37,363 nt of DNA from Roseateles toxinivorans. GTDB taxonomy: Bacteria > Pseudomonadota > Gammaproteobacteria > Burkholderiales > Burkholderiaceae_C. The first letter of the stretch is position 1. Each line of letters opens with the position of its first letter. A program made the position numbers and the translations under genes. The notes below the pieces were generated by a model. That model ran no database searches. It saw only the letters and a program-made list of their open reading frames with translations, and was not told the origin of the DNA. This document shows, in pieces, positions 30,832 to 36,836 of the stretch. The stretch is from contig CAMDHE010000038.1 of the NCBI GenBank assembly GCA_945898095.1, positions 1 through 37,363 on the forward strand. The letters run 5' to 3'.

Positions 30832-30944
30832 GCACCGGTCTGGAATTGGAGGTTGGGTGAATCAGCGACTACGCAAACTCTTGCCTCAGAAGGTCGCCCC
30901 AAAAACTGGCTTTCCTTCGAACAAATCAGAAGCATCTGAACTAG

Positions 30945-31060
30945 GGATGCTCTGCATAACCCCTCACGGCTTGTGCAAGTGCTGCCTCGGGCGGTCTGCG
31001 GCGTTGCATCCCATCCCGATCCGCACTACACACACTCGCGTTGAGTTATGCAGAGCATCC
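30945..31060 (+). mobile_element. 116-bp MITE, copy 1, flanked by CTAG duplication
   Basis: Ends are perfect inverted repeats of 16 bp (GGATGCTCTGCATAAC and its complement). CTAG stands directly on both sides (30941-30944, 31061-31064), a 4-bp target duplication. No coding capacity. About 111 of 116 bases agree with copy 2 at 33611, in the same orientation. It sits between the GntR/UTRA gene and the VOC gene promoter. Confidence 0.92.
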
Positions 31061-31098
31061 CTAGGGATGCCCGCGACCGAGCAGAGTATAAATTTATC

Positions 31099-31126
31099 TT
31101 GACATCAAATAATTCATATATATGAA
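31099..31126 (+). promoter_or_regulatory. Promoter of the VOC-family gene
   Basis: Perfect -35 TTGACA (31099-31104), 16-bp spacer, -10 TATGAA (31121-31126). Transcription would start near 31133 and leave a 45-nt leader to the ACG at 31178. Palindrome 31112-31127 covers the -10. Confidence 0.6.
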
Positions 31127-31127
31127 T
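31112..31127. promoter_or_regulatory. Perfect 16-bp palindrome, candidate operator
   Basis: ATTCATATATATGAAT is its own reverse complement and covers the -10 box of the VOC-gene promoter. A dimeric repressor here would block RNA polymerase. The nearby GntR-type regulators are candidates. Confidence 0.55.
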
Positions 31128-31177
31128 CGCTGAAAAATTTCCAACCCATCAAGAAAGCTATCGCGCAAAGGAAACCC

Positions 31178-31609
31178 ACGGCCAACTTCATCATTCATAT
31201 CGCGATGAAAGTCGATGGCGTCGAAAAGACCCCTACCTTCTGCGCAAACTTGTTCGGCTACAAGCATGTGAACAGGGTACGTCGCGAGGGCAAGAAAGGT
31301 GACCCTATCTCCGGGCACATGAGCGATGGCTCTATGAGCTTGACGCAGATCCATTACGAGGACGCAGAGTCCGATGAAGCCGATTTCGACGGCCCTGCGC
31401 CCTGCATCCATCACATCGGCATGGAAGTCGACGACCTCGACACTTTCATTGTCTCGATCAAGCAACAAGGCGGTGAAATCCTCACCGCCCCGGGCCATCT
31501 GCCGGTGAAGTTCCGCTCACCCAAGGACCCGGTCGCCGAAGTCGTGGCGATCGCCCGCTGGGGAAAAGAAACGCTGGCTGCCGGCGTGCACGGCGAATTT
31601 CTGGCCTGA
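31178..31609 (+). CDS. VOC-family (glyoxalase/bleomycin-resistance fold) protein, apparent ACG start
   Basis: 143 residues of the vicinal-oxygen-chelate fold. First strand ANFIIHIAMKVDG with a metal-type His, ANLFGYKHVNRVR, HHIGMEVDDLD starting the second half, and VAEVVAI with a Glu near the end. The family-like N-terminus begins at 31178, but this codon is ACG, placed six bases after a good AAGGA site; the frame stays open upstream to a TGA at 31100 without any ATG. The first ATG is 31205, which would drop the first strand and its His. So either ACG is used, or a mutation ATG to ACG has disabled the gene. Substrate unknown. Confidence 0.7.
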   Translation, partial: TANFIIHIAMKVDGVEKTPTFCANLFGYKHVNRVRREGKKGDPISGHMSDGSMSLTQIHYEDAESDEADFDGPAPCIHHIGMEVDDLDTFIVSIKQQGGEILTAPGHLPVKFRSPKDPVAEVVAIARWGKETLAAGVHGEFLA

Positions 31610-31713
31610 TTCAAGATAAGCGGACAGCCAAGGCTTCGGTGCGCGCGGCACAAAGTTCGTCGGGCAGGGTCAAGGGGCGGGCAGCGCCAAGGCCATGCCG
31701 ATGGGATCGGGGT

Positions 31714-31738
31714 GGTTCGACGAGCTCACCACGAACGG
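31714..31738. repeat. REP-like hairpin
   Basis: GGTTCGACGAGCTCACCAC followed by GAACGG: GTTCG pairs with CGAAC around GAGCTC. This resembles a dispersed GTTCGACAAGCTC-type repeat that I know from many proteobacterial genomes. It lies in the 268-bp gap between the VOC and GntR/FCD genes; nothing else is seen in that gap except the promoter at its right end. Confidence 0.4.
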
Positions 31739-31856
31739 ATCAGTGGGTGGCAAGCATTGCTCTGACTTGTCATCAAGAGCCCGCGGCAACATAAATGGTG
31801 AGCCGAGCCCCCTCAAACGGATGAGCAACCGGCATGGTCCATTTGTTTGCTCATTT

Positions 31857-31872
31857 TCGTATACGATATAAC
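31857..31872 (+). promoter_or_regulatory. GntR operator TCGTATACGA and -10 TATAAC
   Basis: TCGTATACGA (31857-31866) is a perfect palindrome and fits the TNGTNNACNA pattern known for FadR-type GntR proteins. TATAAC (31867-31872) abuts it as a -10 box. The expected transcription start would be at or next to the ATG (31878), suggesting an autoregulated, possibly leaderless message. Confidence 0.55.
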
Positions 31873-31877
31873 GCAAT

Positions 31878-32618
31878 ATGAGCGCCGTCCAACCCCTGCC
31901 TTGGCTGACCGAATCATCGGCTGAGCGTTTCAACGCTGTACGCGACACCTCGCTGGCCAAGCTGGTCCGGGATGATGTCCTCGCGCTGATCCTCAAAGGC
32001 GTGCTGACTGTCGGTCAGCGCATCAACGAACCCGATGTGGCGGCCCGTCTGGGCGTCTCGCGGGTGCCGGTGCGAGAAGCACTGCGTGAACTCGAAAGCT
32101 CGGGCCTGGTCGTCGCGCGCAAGCATGCAGGTGTCTTTGTGCGACAGCTCGACGAACCCGAAATCAGGGATCTCTACCAGTTGCGCAGCCTGCTCGAAGG
32201 CTTTGCCGGGCGCCAGGCCGCACTGCTGCCCGCCGACCGCAAAGCCGCCCTGCTGGCGATCCTGGTCGATTCGGTGCAGATCATGAATGACGCGGCCAGC
32301 AATGACTTGCCGCGCTATTACAGCGAAAACCTGCGCTTTCACTGGGCGCTGGTCGAAGCGGCTGGCAACCATTCGCTGACCGAAACCTACCGGGGCATCG
32401 TGCAGAAGCTGCATCTTTCGCGCCTGAAAAATCTCTCGCAGACCACCGGCATGCAGGCCTCGGTCGCCGAACATCTGCAGATCGTCGAGGCCGTTCGCCA
32501 AGGCGAGCCGCAGCGCTGCGAAGCGCTGATGACCCGCCATGTCAGCCAAGCCCATCAGCGACTGATCGCAAGTAGCGCAGCTGATTCCATCCCGATTACT
32601 CCGGAGACCATCCCATGA
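31878..32618 (+). CDS. GntR-family regulator, FCD (FadR-like) subfamily
   Basis: 246 residues: an N-terminal winged helix (VGQRINEPDVAARLGVSRVPVREALRELESSGLV), then an FCD domain of about 150 residues with ENLRFHWALVEAAGNHSL and HLQIVEAVRQGEP supplying the usual metal/ligand histidines. FCD regulators of this type commonly sense organic acids. Its stop overlaps the next ATG (ATGA), so it is co-translated with the Bug receptor. No ribosome site precedes its ATG. A palindrome matching the GntR consensus lies directly upstream. Confidence 0.93.
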   Translation: MSAVQPLPWLTESSAERFNAVRDTSLAKLVRDDVLALILKGVLTVGQRINEPDVAARLGVSRVPVREALRELESSGLVVARKHAGVFVRQLDEPEIRDLYQLRSLLEGFAGRQAALLPADRKAALLAILVDSVQIMNDAASNDLPRYYSENLRFHWALVEAAGNHSLTETYRGIVQKLHLSRLKNLSQTTGMQASVAEHLQIVEAVRQGEPQRCEALMTRHVSQAHQRLIASSAADSIPITPETIP

Positions 32619-33595
32619 AAAGACGCAGCATCATCCAGGCAGCGCTCGGCCTGCCCACCTTGTCAGGGCTTGCCGGCCTGGCCGCAGCGCAAAGCCAATA
32701 CCCGTCCAAACCGATCCGCTACATCGTTCCGGTCGCCGCAGGCGGCGGCAGTGACATGGTCGCCCGCACCTTGACCGAACGCTGGGGGAACCTGCTCAAG
32801 CAGACCTTCGTCGTCGACAATCTCGGCGGCGGCGGCGGTGTGATCGCATCACAAGCCGCGATGCGCGCTGCGCCCGATGGCTACACCTTGATGCAGGGCT
32901 ATGTCGCAACCCACGGCACCGGCCCGGCCACGCGCAAGCTGCCCTATGACCCAGTGAAGGACTTCACACCGATCGGCATGATCGGCGCCACGCCCAACGT
33001 GCTGGTGGTGAACGCCGCGCTACCGGTCAAGAACATCAAGGAATTCATCGACTACCTTAAGAAAAACCCCGGCAAATTGAGCTATGGCTCGGCCGGCCCC
33101 GGGTCGCTGACGCATATGACGATGGAACTGCTCAAGCTGCAGGTCCAATCATTCATGGTGCATATCCCTTATCGAGGCATCTCGCCGGCTTTCACCGACC
33201 TGATCGGCGGGCAAACCCAGGCCATGTTCCCCGGCCTGGCTGCGGCGCTGCCGCATATCCGCTCGGGCCGGATCCGTGCGCTGGCGGTCACCGGGATGCA
33301 GCGCCATCCGCTCTTCAAGGACCTGCCGACGCTGGACGAATCGGGCTTCAAGGGCTTCGATGCGCAGCAATGGTATGGCGTGGTCGGCCCGGCCGGCATG
33401 CCGGCGCCGATCGTCAAGCTGCTCAACGAAACCATGGGCGTGGTGCTGAAAGCACCCGATCTGCGCGAAAAGCTCTCGGTCGAAGCGATCGAGCCGATGG
33501 TGATGAGCCCCGAGAAGTTTGGTGACTACATCCGCGCCGACATCGCGCGCTGGACCAAGGTCGCCCTGGAACAGAACATCCAGCTCGACAACTGA
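32615..33595 (+). CDS. Tripartite tricarboxylate transporter receptor (Bug family)
   Basis: 326-residue periplasmic binding protein. The leader has a twin-arginine-like start (MKRRSIIQAALGLPTLSGLAG) with cleavage near AAA-QS, so Tat or Sec export are both possible. Bug signatures: PIRYIVPVAAGGGSDMVAR, VDNLGGGGGVIAS, TPNVLVVN, KNPGKLSYGSAGPGS. It follows the GntR/FCD gene with a 4-bp overlap and precedes mmgE/prpD, from which a MITE now parts it. Likely imports a carboxylic acid degraded by that enzyme. No TctA/TctB genes nearby. Confidence 0.93.
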   Translation: MKRRSIIQAALGLPTLSGLAGLAAAQSQYPSKPIRYIVPVAAGGGSDMVARTLTERWGNLLKQTFVVDNLGGGGGVIASQAAMRAAPDGYTLMQGYVATHGTGPATRKLPYDPVKDFTPIGMIGATPNVLVVNAALPVKNIKEFIDYLKKNPGKLSYGSAGPGSLTHMTMELLKLQVQSFMVHIPYRGISPAFTDLIGGQTQAMFPGLAAALPHIRSGRIRALAVTGMQRHPLFKDLPTLDESGFKGFDAQQWYGVVGPAGMPAPIVKLLNETMGVVLKAPDLREKLSVEAIEPMVMSPEKFGDYIRADIARWTKVALEQNIQLDN

Positions 33596-33610
33596 TCCGT
33601 ATCCTCCTTA

Positions 33611-33726
33611 GGATGCTCTGCATAACCCCTCACGGTTTGTGATAGCGCGGCCTCGGGCGGTCTGCGGCGTTGCATCCCATCCCGATCCGCACTACACACA
33701 CTCGCGTTGAGTTATGCAGAGCATCC
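33611..33726 (+). mobile_element. 116-bp MITE, copy 2, flanked by CTTA duplication
   Basis: Same perfect 16-bp inverted ends as copy 1, same orientation and length, about five mismatches, all near the left end's interior. CTTA stands on both sides (33607-33610 and 33727-33730). It lies 15 bp after the Bug receptor stop and 27 bp before the mmgE/prpD ATG, inside what should be one operon. Confidence 0.92.
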
Positions 33727-33753
33727 CTTACGCTTCATTCACCGGAAGATTCC

Positions 33754-35225: not shown

Positions 35226-36038
35226 ATGAACATCATCGTCAATGACGAACTGCAAGCCTATATCGACCCATTGACGCCCGACGAGCGCCAAGCCTTGGAG
35301 CGCAGCATCGTCGACGAAGGCTGCCGCGATGCGCTGGTGCTATGGGGCGAGATCCTCGTCGACGGACATAACCGCTACGGCATCTGCCAGCAGCATGGCA
35401 TTGCCTTCGAGACCGTGCAAAACACCCGCTTCCAATCGCTGCAGGACGTCAAGCTGTGGATGATCGATCACCACCTGGGACGGCGCAGCCTGTCGGATTT
35501 CCAGCGCGGTGTGCTGGCCTTGCGCAAGAAGGAAATCACCAGCGCCCGGGCCATGGCCGCAGCGCTGGCACCCACTGTGGCAGGCCAGGAGACATCCACA
35601 GCCGAGCTGCCGCCGCCAGAACGCCTGAACACGCGCGAATCGATCGCCAAAGCGGCGCGCATCAGCAGCAATACCGTCATGCAGATCGAAAAAATCCAGA
35701 AGACTGCGGTGCCCGAGCTGGTCGCTGCGGTCAAGGCCGGAACGATTTCGATCAACACGGCAGCCACGGTTGCCAGCATGCCTGCGGCCGAACAGGTAGC
35801 CGCGGCAGCCGGCGGCAAGAGCGATTTGCAGCAAGCGGCCAAGCGCGTTCGCCAAGGACGCGCCAAACCTGCGGCAAGCGAAGCTGGCCCGGACGAAGCG
35901 CCGGAAGATGTCGCCCTGCGCAATCGCGAGACGCAATTGCTGCTGCTGCAAAGCACCGTCCAGCAATTGACCGCCGAGAACAAGGCGCTGCAGGAAGAAA
36001 ACCGCCAGCTGCGCGCGCAACTGGCCGCTGCGCAGTAA
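35226..36038 (+). CDS. ParB-like nuclease-domain/HTH protein with coiled-coil tail
   Basis: 270 residues. The N-terminal part has a ParB/Srx-like motif (GEILVDGHNRYGICQQHGI), then a helix-turn-helix region (NTRESIAKAARISSNTVMQIEKIQ), an Ala-rich linker, and a C-terminal leucine-zipper-like coiled coil (STVQQLTAENKALQEENRQL). Relatives are often annotated as plasmid partition-related proteins and occur on integrated elements. There is no ParA gene beside it and no parS-like site is recognised. It probably binds DNA as a dimer; role unknown. It has its own promoter. Confidence 0.75.
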   Translation: MNIIVNDELQAYIDPLTPDERQALERSIVDEGCRDALVLWGEILVDGHNRYGICQQHGIAFETVQNTRFQSLQDVKLWMIDHHLGRRSLSDFQRGVLALRKKEITSARAMAAALAPTVAGQETSTAELPPPERLNTRESIAKAARISSNTVMQIEKIQKTAVPELVAAVKAGTISINTAATVASMPAAEQVAAAAGGKSDLQQAAKRVRQGRAKPAASEAGPDEAPEDVALRNRETQLLLLQSTVQQLTAENKALQEENRQLRAQLAAAQ

Positions 36039-36422: not shown

Positions 36423-36836
36423 ATGTACTTGCTCGACACAAACGTAGTTTCGGAGCTCCGCAAGCCGAAGCCACACGGCGCAGTGTTGCAATGGATTCAG
36501 AACGTCCCGGACGCTGATCTGCATATTTCGGCAGTGACGATTGGCGAAATTCAAGCCGGTATTGAGTTGACTCGCGAACAAGACGAATCGAAGGCGGCAG
36601 AGCTTGACCAATGGCTGGAACTTGTCTCTGGCTCATTCAATGTGGTTCCAATGGATGCGCTGGTTTTCAGGATATGGGCTCGACTGATGCATCGAAGCTC
36701 CGACACGCTCTACGAGGACGCAATGATTGCTGCCACAGCCAAGGTGCACAAGCTCACCGTGGTGACTCGAAACGTGACGGACTTCAAGAGCTTTGGCGTG
36801 AGCGTACTTAACCCGTTCACCTCGCCTCGAAAGTGA
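36423..36836 (+). CDS. Type II toxin, PIN-domain ribonuclease (VapC-like)
   Basis: 137-residue PIN-domain RNase. Acidic metal-site residues: D5 (MYLLDTNVVSELRK), E42 (TIGEIQAGIE), D99 (YEDAMIAATA) and D120 (TRNVTDF), all in the expected places. VapC-type toxins cleave specific tRNAs or rRNA when the antitoxin is degraded. Antitoxin and toxin are adjacent and presumably co-translated. All four catalytic positions are present, so the toxin looks active. Target RNA unknown. Confidence 0.92.
   Translation: MYLLDTNVVSELRKPKPHGAVLQWIQNVPDADLHISAVTIGEIQAGIELTREQDESKAAELDQWLELVSGSFNVVPMDALVFRIWARLMHRSSDTLYEDAMIAATAKVHKLTVVTRNVTDFKSFGVSVLNPFTSPRK

Follow-up and report, generated by a model that had tools for sequence, protein, structure and literature searches.

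Internal deletion of an insertion sequence (IS) is the usual origin of the miniature inverted-repeat transposable elements (MITEs) of bacteria. The two 116-bp repeats analysed here lie in a 37,363-nucleotide stretch of the genome of Roseateles toxinivorans (positions 1 to 37,363 of contig CAMDHE010000038.1, hereafter the window), and the described elements closest to them are the MITEs of the IS5 group. Like these, they are short and non-coding, with perfect inverted ends, a YTAR-like 4-bp target duplication, a high copy number and IS5_4 transposases in related genomes. They differ in their interior, which appears not to be IS-derived and is common to elements with other ends. With a probability of about 0.7, the window repeats are hairpin-deleted copies of a non-autonomous 162-bp element with a structured core, moved in trans, whose ends are rarely exchanged.

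Other described repeats share part of this organization. REP and BIME sequences with their RAYT are repeated conserved hairpins found singly or as inverted pairs, while the elements studied here have inverted repeats, target duplications and partner ISs of the DDE type. Correia, ERIC and RUP repeats are repeated structured intergenic elements with inverted repeats or target duplications but have one end type each; they are likened to our elements by description, not by sequence. MITEs were reportedly described in Polaromonas sp. JS666 by Mattes et al. in 2008, and a contig of this strain carries the core of our element within a 267-bp element with a 3-bp duplication (L127), so part of the element family may already be in print. 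PMC10969869 cites the JS666 MITEs and also covers the Correia repeats. Among open-licence papers, searches with the end and core strings returned one unrelated article and the other searches nothing relevant.

The 162-bp element and its deleted copies

The draft genome to which the window belongs (4.71 Mb, 209 contigs) contains 213 ends within 2 mismatches of the 16-bp sequence GGATGCTCTGCATAAC that bounds the repeats, against none for a reversed control pattern. Complete copies of the 162-bp class with perfect ends number 39, and with the covariance model R1 103 cores score E 0.001 or lower. Family statistics are drawn from 74 elements in the genome stretches collected. Sixty of them are 162 bp long, five 161 or 163 bp, eight 111-125 bp and one 57 bp; a further 28 ends have no mate in the collected stretch, many of them at contig ends. 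Both flanks are available for 71 copies, where the 4-bp duplication is exact in 42, agrees at three of four bases in 19 and mismatches in 10. Shuffled flanks yield a mean of 7.5 exact duplications and a maximum of 16. The target consensus is C/T-T-A-G/A, with YTAR in 28 of the 42 exact duplications. The element is thus short, non-coding, bounded by inverted repeats, flanked by target duplications and present in many copies, as MITEs are, and the MITE-like anatomy given in a preliminary description of the window is borne out by the duplications and the genome-wide ends. That description also took the 116-bp form for a seemingly active family, a view that the length distribution does not support: the main mobile unit is the 162-bp element, present in about 100 copies in this genome.

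The two window copies share one orientation (forward strand) and are 116 bp long, copy 1 at 30945-31060 and copy 2 at 33611-33726. Relative to the 162-bp form they lack 46 bp flanked by TTGCAT repeats, and the missing part is the tip of the hairpin. The junction TTGCAT, identified by comparison with 162-bp copies, is found at 31004-31009 in copy 1 and at 33670-33675 in copy 2, both on the forward strand. Sequence comparison places on the same strand the left block of the conserved core, GGGCGGTCTGCGGCGTTGC, at 30989-31007 and 33655-33673, and the right block of copy 1, of which TTGCATCCCATCCC is left over, at 31004-31017. When the arms are compared without the hairpin, copy 1 differs by 1 from the full-length element L010 and by 5 from copy 2, while copy 2 is identical to the full-length L022. 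The majority of 162-bp elements and the closer relationship of the arms to full-length copies exclude 116 bp as the founding unit. The simplest reading of these sequences is that the window copies are independent hairpin deletions from full-length elements. A hairpin-deleted copy with another junction is also found (L007). For none of the eight deleted copies is the strictly nearest relative itself deleted, a result uninformative on their mobility, for random sets of 8 give the same value in 1356 of 2000 draws; the proposal that deleted copies are a dead end was dropped for this reason.

Several copies of the draft genome depart from the common form. The 57-bp element (L060, G000:C23:134-190) is a remnant with both 16-bp ends and nearly no interior, and it is flanked by TAAG on one side and CTTA on the other, a reverse-complementary pair in place of a direct duplication. 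The 10 copies with unmatched flanks (for instance L009, TTAG/CTTA, and L304, TTAG/CTAA) could be explained by recombination between copies or by draft misjoins at repeats. At L037 (G000:C4:2083) a lone element end directly adjoins coding-looking sequence, as if the remainder had been replaced; we take this sequence to resemble an IS91-type protein.

The folded core, its distribution and its ends

As a single strand, the complete 162-bp element adopts the fold of one long, imperfect hairpin (z -6.0; -4.9 for the 116-bp copy), and the interior is an imperfect hairpin with the invariant internal-loop letters GGCGTTGC ... GCGCCTTG. Its arms covary. In alignment A1, made of 43 cores hand-picked among 70 non-redundant ones with some indel-bearing cores excluded, covariation is 0.353 against at most 0.147 in slid controls. 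In alignment A3, which takes all model matches in 100 loci without hand choice (116 matches, 113 distinct rows) and is fitted to the covariance model, the value is 0.402, and slid controls reach at most 0.099. The cores from other bacterial families alone reach 0.757 against at most 0.133 (32 rows, 16 families), and among them the loop letters GCGCCTTG are exact in 27 of 32 and CGGCGTTGC in 19 of 32. The right block lies within 4 mismatches in 100 of the 108 evaluable exact matches to the left block, the search having used the left block alone. Comparison of the elements with Rfam 15 gave chance-level matches (20.4 versus a gathering score of 73 bits; 14.3 versus 70 bits).

The core is widespread. 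BLAST with the 162-bp form, scoring 2 candidates per genome, matched 72 of 299 genomes of the host's family, frequently at the centre of the element only. The exact left-block 19-mer is found in at least 109 stretches, mainly in Comamonadaceae records, from Comamonas, Acidovorax, Paracidovorax, Polaromonas, Simplicispira, Curvibacter and other genera. The covariance model matches 83 of 150 sampled family genomes at E up to 1e-4 and has no match in the other 67; in the 21 genomes picked as BLAST-positive, all 21 carry copies, from 1 to 147 per genome. A class-wide search with the model at this threshold, scoring 18 candidates per genome, found matches in 56 of 229 genomes, 54 of them outside the family. 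Twenty loci from the 19 better-scoring of these 54 genomes were inspected, covering 16 families, some of the other 35 genomes having scored weakly. All 20 loci match the model again, while 22 other sources (160 kb) give no match, and 12 of the 20 contain a second, inverted core that was not used for their choice. In these 12 loci and in L289 and L388-L391 (G323) the inverted cores are about 105 bp apart; the linker between them is CCTTCGGG-like and could itself fold into a small hairpin of high stability.

Plasmids and viral contigs gave matches as well. An Azotobacter chroococcum plasmid matches the other-family elements over 51-57 bp; the plasmid collection yielded 2 records and the phage collection none. 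The exact core 19-mer is present in the viral contigs L400, L401 and L402. Viral matches to the 16-mer ends (14 stretches) include none with a mate end and were taken as chance. On the conjugative IncP plasmid pRK1-5 of Cupriavidus basilensis (L108), an IS481-family transposase gene lies some 90 bp away from an element with CTCTGCACGAATC ends. Element and gene were considered as one unit, an idea set aside because the element has its own ends and flanks; the plasmid might carry such elements from one genus to another.

The core recurs in other genera, bounded there by ends that resemble GGRANCCTCTGCACRAATC, GGCAACGCTGAACAAGTCC or GARCSTGTTTACGATC. The first two are associated with 4-bp duplications (CTAG, CTAA, TTAG and others) and the third with 3-bp TNA duplications. 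Under a strict criterion 34 elements have 4-bp duplications and 26 have 3-bp ones only; the 34 include 4 of the 20 copies used from the window's own genome, and the end assignment is doubtful for L080, L105, L139 and L187. Most short forms are 160-162 bp long with either end type, and a longer form has about 267 bp. Further end types are found in other families. G443 and G455 have GGGAACCTCTGCACGAATC-like ends; in G323 the ends are TGTCCTGTCTCC-like, with CTAG-like flanks, and in G494 TACTCTTTCAAGG adjoins CTAG. For another type, TTAACCCGGCAA, the right end is followed by TA in all 8 cases. IS481 elements have CTAG targets and TGT ends, and IS630 elements TA targets. From end shape and flanks, the other-family types beside CTAG or TA are presumably IS481-like and IS630-like.

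Partner ISs were sought by a PF01609 search in 25 genomes. Those of about 1.17-1.2 kb have GG ends and 4-bp duplications (L272, L238, L239, L260, L241, L234 and L246). L272 and L238 are both 1171 bp long, with duplications CTAA and TTAA, and score 346 and 338 bits with the NCBIfam model NF033581 (IS5_4). Other partners for the 4-bp type are the pairs L260/L364 and L246/L356, and L357 of the sister genome G673, a 1182-bp IS with an open IS5_4 frame, CTAG on both sides and the ends GGAAATCCTGCATAAG / GGATGGTCTGAATAAC. In G669 the ends GGACACTCTGCATAAC / GGAAGGTCTGCAAAAC surround a frame with stops. A shorter class with GA ends, about 0.84 kb in length, comprises L276 and L243; L276, flanked by TCA/TCA and scoring 244 bits with NF033580 (IS5_3), matches the elements with 3-bp TNA duplications. 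The end variant GTCTACGATC is common to L276 and the element L092, both from G015, and IS and element ends likewise agree in G025, both being closer matches than those between the 162-bp element of the draft genome and same-genus ISs. IS5_4 proteins score above the cut-off in 5 of 18 same-genus genomes, some with ends near those of the element, which strengthens the earlier suggestion that the 4-bp duplications point to an IS5-type transposase encoded outside the window. An IS5-like fragment of the draft genome itself (L063) was discarded as partner because its outer end reads differently. Compared with seven ISs, the 162-bp element has its best matches in the terminal 19 bp and none below E 0.01. 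Judging from these comparisons the element is not a shortened IS: just the terminal 16-19 bp or so resemble IS5-group elements of sister species.

The two insertions in the window

The terminal inverted repeats of both copies, located by an end-pattern scan of the window, consist of the 16-bp sequence and its complement with no mismatch. They are found at 30945-30960 (forward strand) and 31045-31060 (reverse strand) in copy 1, and at 33611-33626 (forward) and 33711-33726 (reverse) in copy 2. The window holds four matches to these ends with up to 3 mismatches, where shuffled sequences have 0.33 on average and none of 100 attains four. Exact target duplications flank each copy: CTAG at 30941-30944 and 31061-31064 for copy 1, CTTA at 33607-33610 and 33727-33730 for copy 2, the latter deviating from YTAR. 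Exactly five positions distinguish the two copies (26, 32, 33, 36 and 39). Size, perfect inverted ends, duplications and the approximate number of differences were all correctly recognized in the preliminary description.

Both copies are missing at the corresponding place in the same-genus genomes G673 and G676, where the sites are uninterrupted; the flanking segments are 87-96% identical to those of the window by BLAST. The empty site of copy 1 has a single CTAG in G676 and CAAG in G673. At the place of copy 2 the local bases differ and neither genome keeps CTTA. Empty sites, whose search in sister strains had been proposed as a check, were thus found for both copies, and they argue for two separate insertions in the lineage of the window in which the intervening DNA did not move as a unit, as had been deduced from the different duplications. 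The description of the elements as recently active holds in part: both insertions are later than the split from G673 and G676, but no identical pair exists among the 60 bodies of 162 bp, which differ pairwise at a median of 11 positions and a minimum of 1.

The genes on either side of copy 1 encode a GntR/UTRA regulator and a glyoxalase-like protein, those around copy 2 a TctC receptor and an MmgE/PrpD protein. Elsewhere in the window, 36423-36836 codes for a VapC-like PIN-domain protein (PF01850 match). Pfam gives just a sub-threshold coiled-coil match for the protein encoded at 35226-36038, whose amino-terminal part we take to resemble a ParB-type domain.

Mobilization, alternatives and significance

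In the mechanism that we propose, an IS5-group DDE transposase (NCBIfam IS5_4) would act in trans on the 16-bp ends, excise or copy the element and, on insertion at YTAR-like targets, duplicate 4 bp. The interior is a conserved hairpin with strongly covarying stems and not a remnant of that IS. Elements of many genera have this core, singly or as two inverted copies, between other ends that fit other transposases, the transposase being identified for two end types; the core may have persisted while its ends changed transposase type a few times. We guess that the core, as folded DNA or RNA, helps the element to spread or to be tolerated. Both window copies later lost the tip of the hairpin by deletion between the flanking TTGCAT repeats, whose junction is visible, probably by slippage.

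Several observations weigh against this proposal. The search for an IS with ends like GGATGCTCTGCATAAC, suggested in the preliminary description, led to close ends in same-genus ISs but to no autonomous IS with exactly these 16 bp, the nearest differing at 2-5 bases. The draft genome shows no matching IS, its best score with IS5_4 being 21.7 bits for a cut-off of 140, although gaps left in the draft make this absence unproven. In G256 and G152 the IS compared is of another type than the ends of the element. The invariance of the left block is partly ascertained, this block having been the search string. Core strand relative to tandem genes, counted over the pooled loci of the draft and of named genomes, is the same in 31 cases and opposite in 21, which lends no orientation support to an RNA role. 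The core tree also bears on how often ends were exchanged. Its first version required 4 changes of duplication type versus 19.7 in shuffles. Without five rows that are doubtful or on long branches (L080, L105, L139, L187 and L203) it needs 2 changes (bootstrap 2-3; shuffled 18.5), and a single origin of the duplication type is not rejected (p-AU 0.366). Frequent end switching was abandoned on account of this drop; so few changes on the tree indicate that ends are mostly inherited with the core and that switching is rare.

Covariation in a palindrome can also arise by template switching between its arms. Quasi-palindrome correction is a known mutational process, and the core might be an old passive interior whose arms repair one another, an explanation to which the deletion-prone hairpin tip (8 deleted copies and one 57-bp remnant among 74) lends some weight. 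We consider it unlikely: specific mismatches persist, and correction would not keep the unpaired loop letters that are conserved across 16 families. It is somewhat more doubtful that the core is a structure useful to the host, such as an RNA, a protein site, or a nucleoid or mRNA-end signal, which was captured by transposon ends and is kept for the host's benefit. The strong covariation and the conserved loop letters would suit such a role, as would the intergenic placement: of the 72 named-locus elements that have genes on either side, 2 fall within a predicted gene, where about 79% of the loci is predicted as coding by a home-made gene finder. Selection against gene disruption would lead to the same placement, however, and neither the lack of orientation bias nor the copy number, which varies from 1 to 147 among genomes and is accompanied by the 67 of 150 family genomes without match, favours a host function. 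Most improbable is that the element is an ordinary MITE derived by internal deletion of one IS5-group IS, its interior being old IS sequence. Its inverted repeats and duplications fit the IS5 group, but the seven partner or related ISs resemble it at the ends only, and the same interior is found between ends with 4-bp duplications, ends with 3-bp duplications and the end types of other families.

Our preferred reading of the window repeats is that they are non-autonomous, have a structured core and are moved in trans. A broader idea, which we hold tentatively and at somewhat less than even odds, is that such elements form a class defined by the folded core and not by the transposase. The hairpin, single or doubled in inverted orientation, would be the unit of inheritance, carried across many proteobacterial families by whichever DDE transposase fits the ends (IS5-group, IS5_3-type and probably IS481- and IS630-like), with the core promoting spread through an interaction at the DNA or RNA level.

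Many copies in the draft genome sit at contig ends; repeats of this kind interrupt assemblies, and the covariance model R1 allows them to be annotated. Bacterial MITEs are usually seen as broken ISs with an irrelevant interior; in the elements described here, which reach about 100-150 copies per genome, it is the interior that is conserved and the ends that vary. If the fold is under selection, it would offer a handle on how a non-autonomous element outlasts its transposase.

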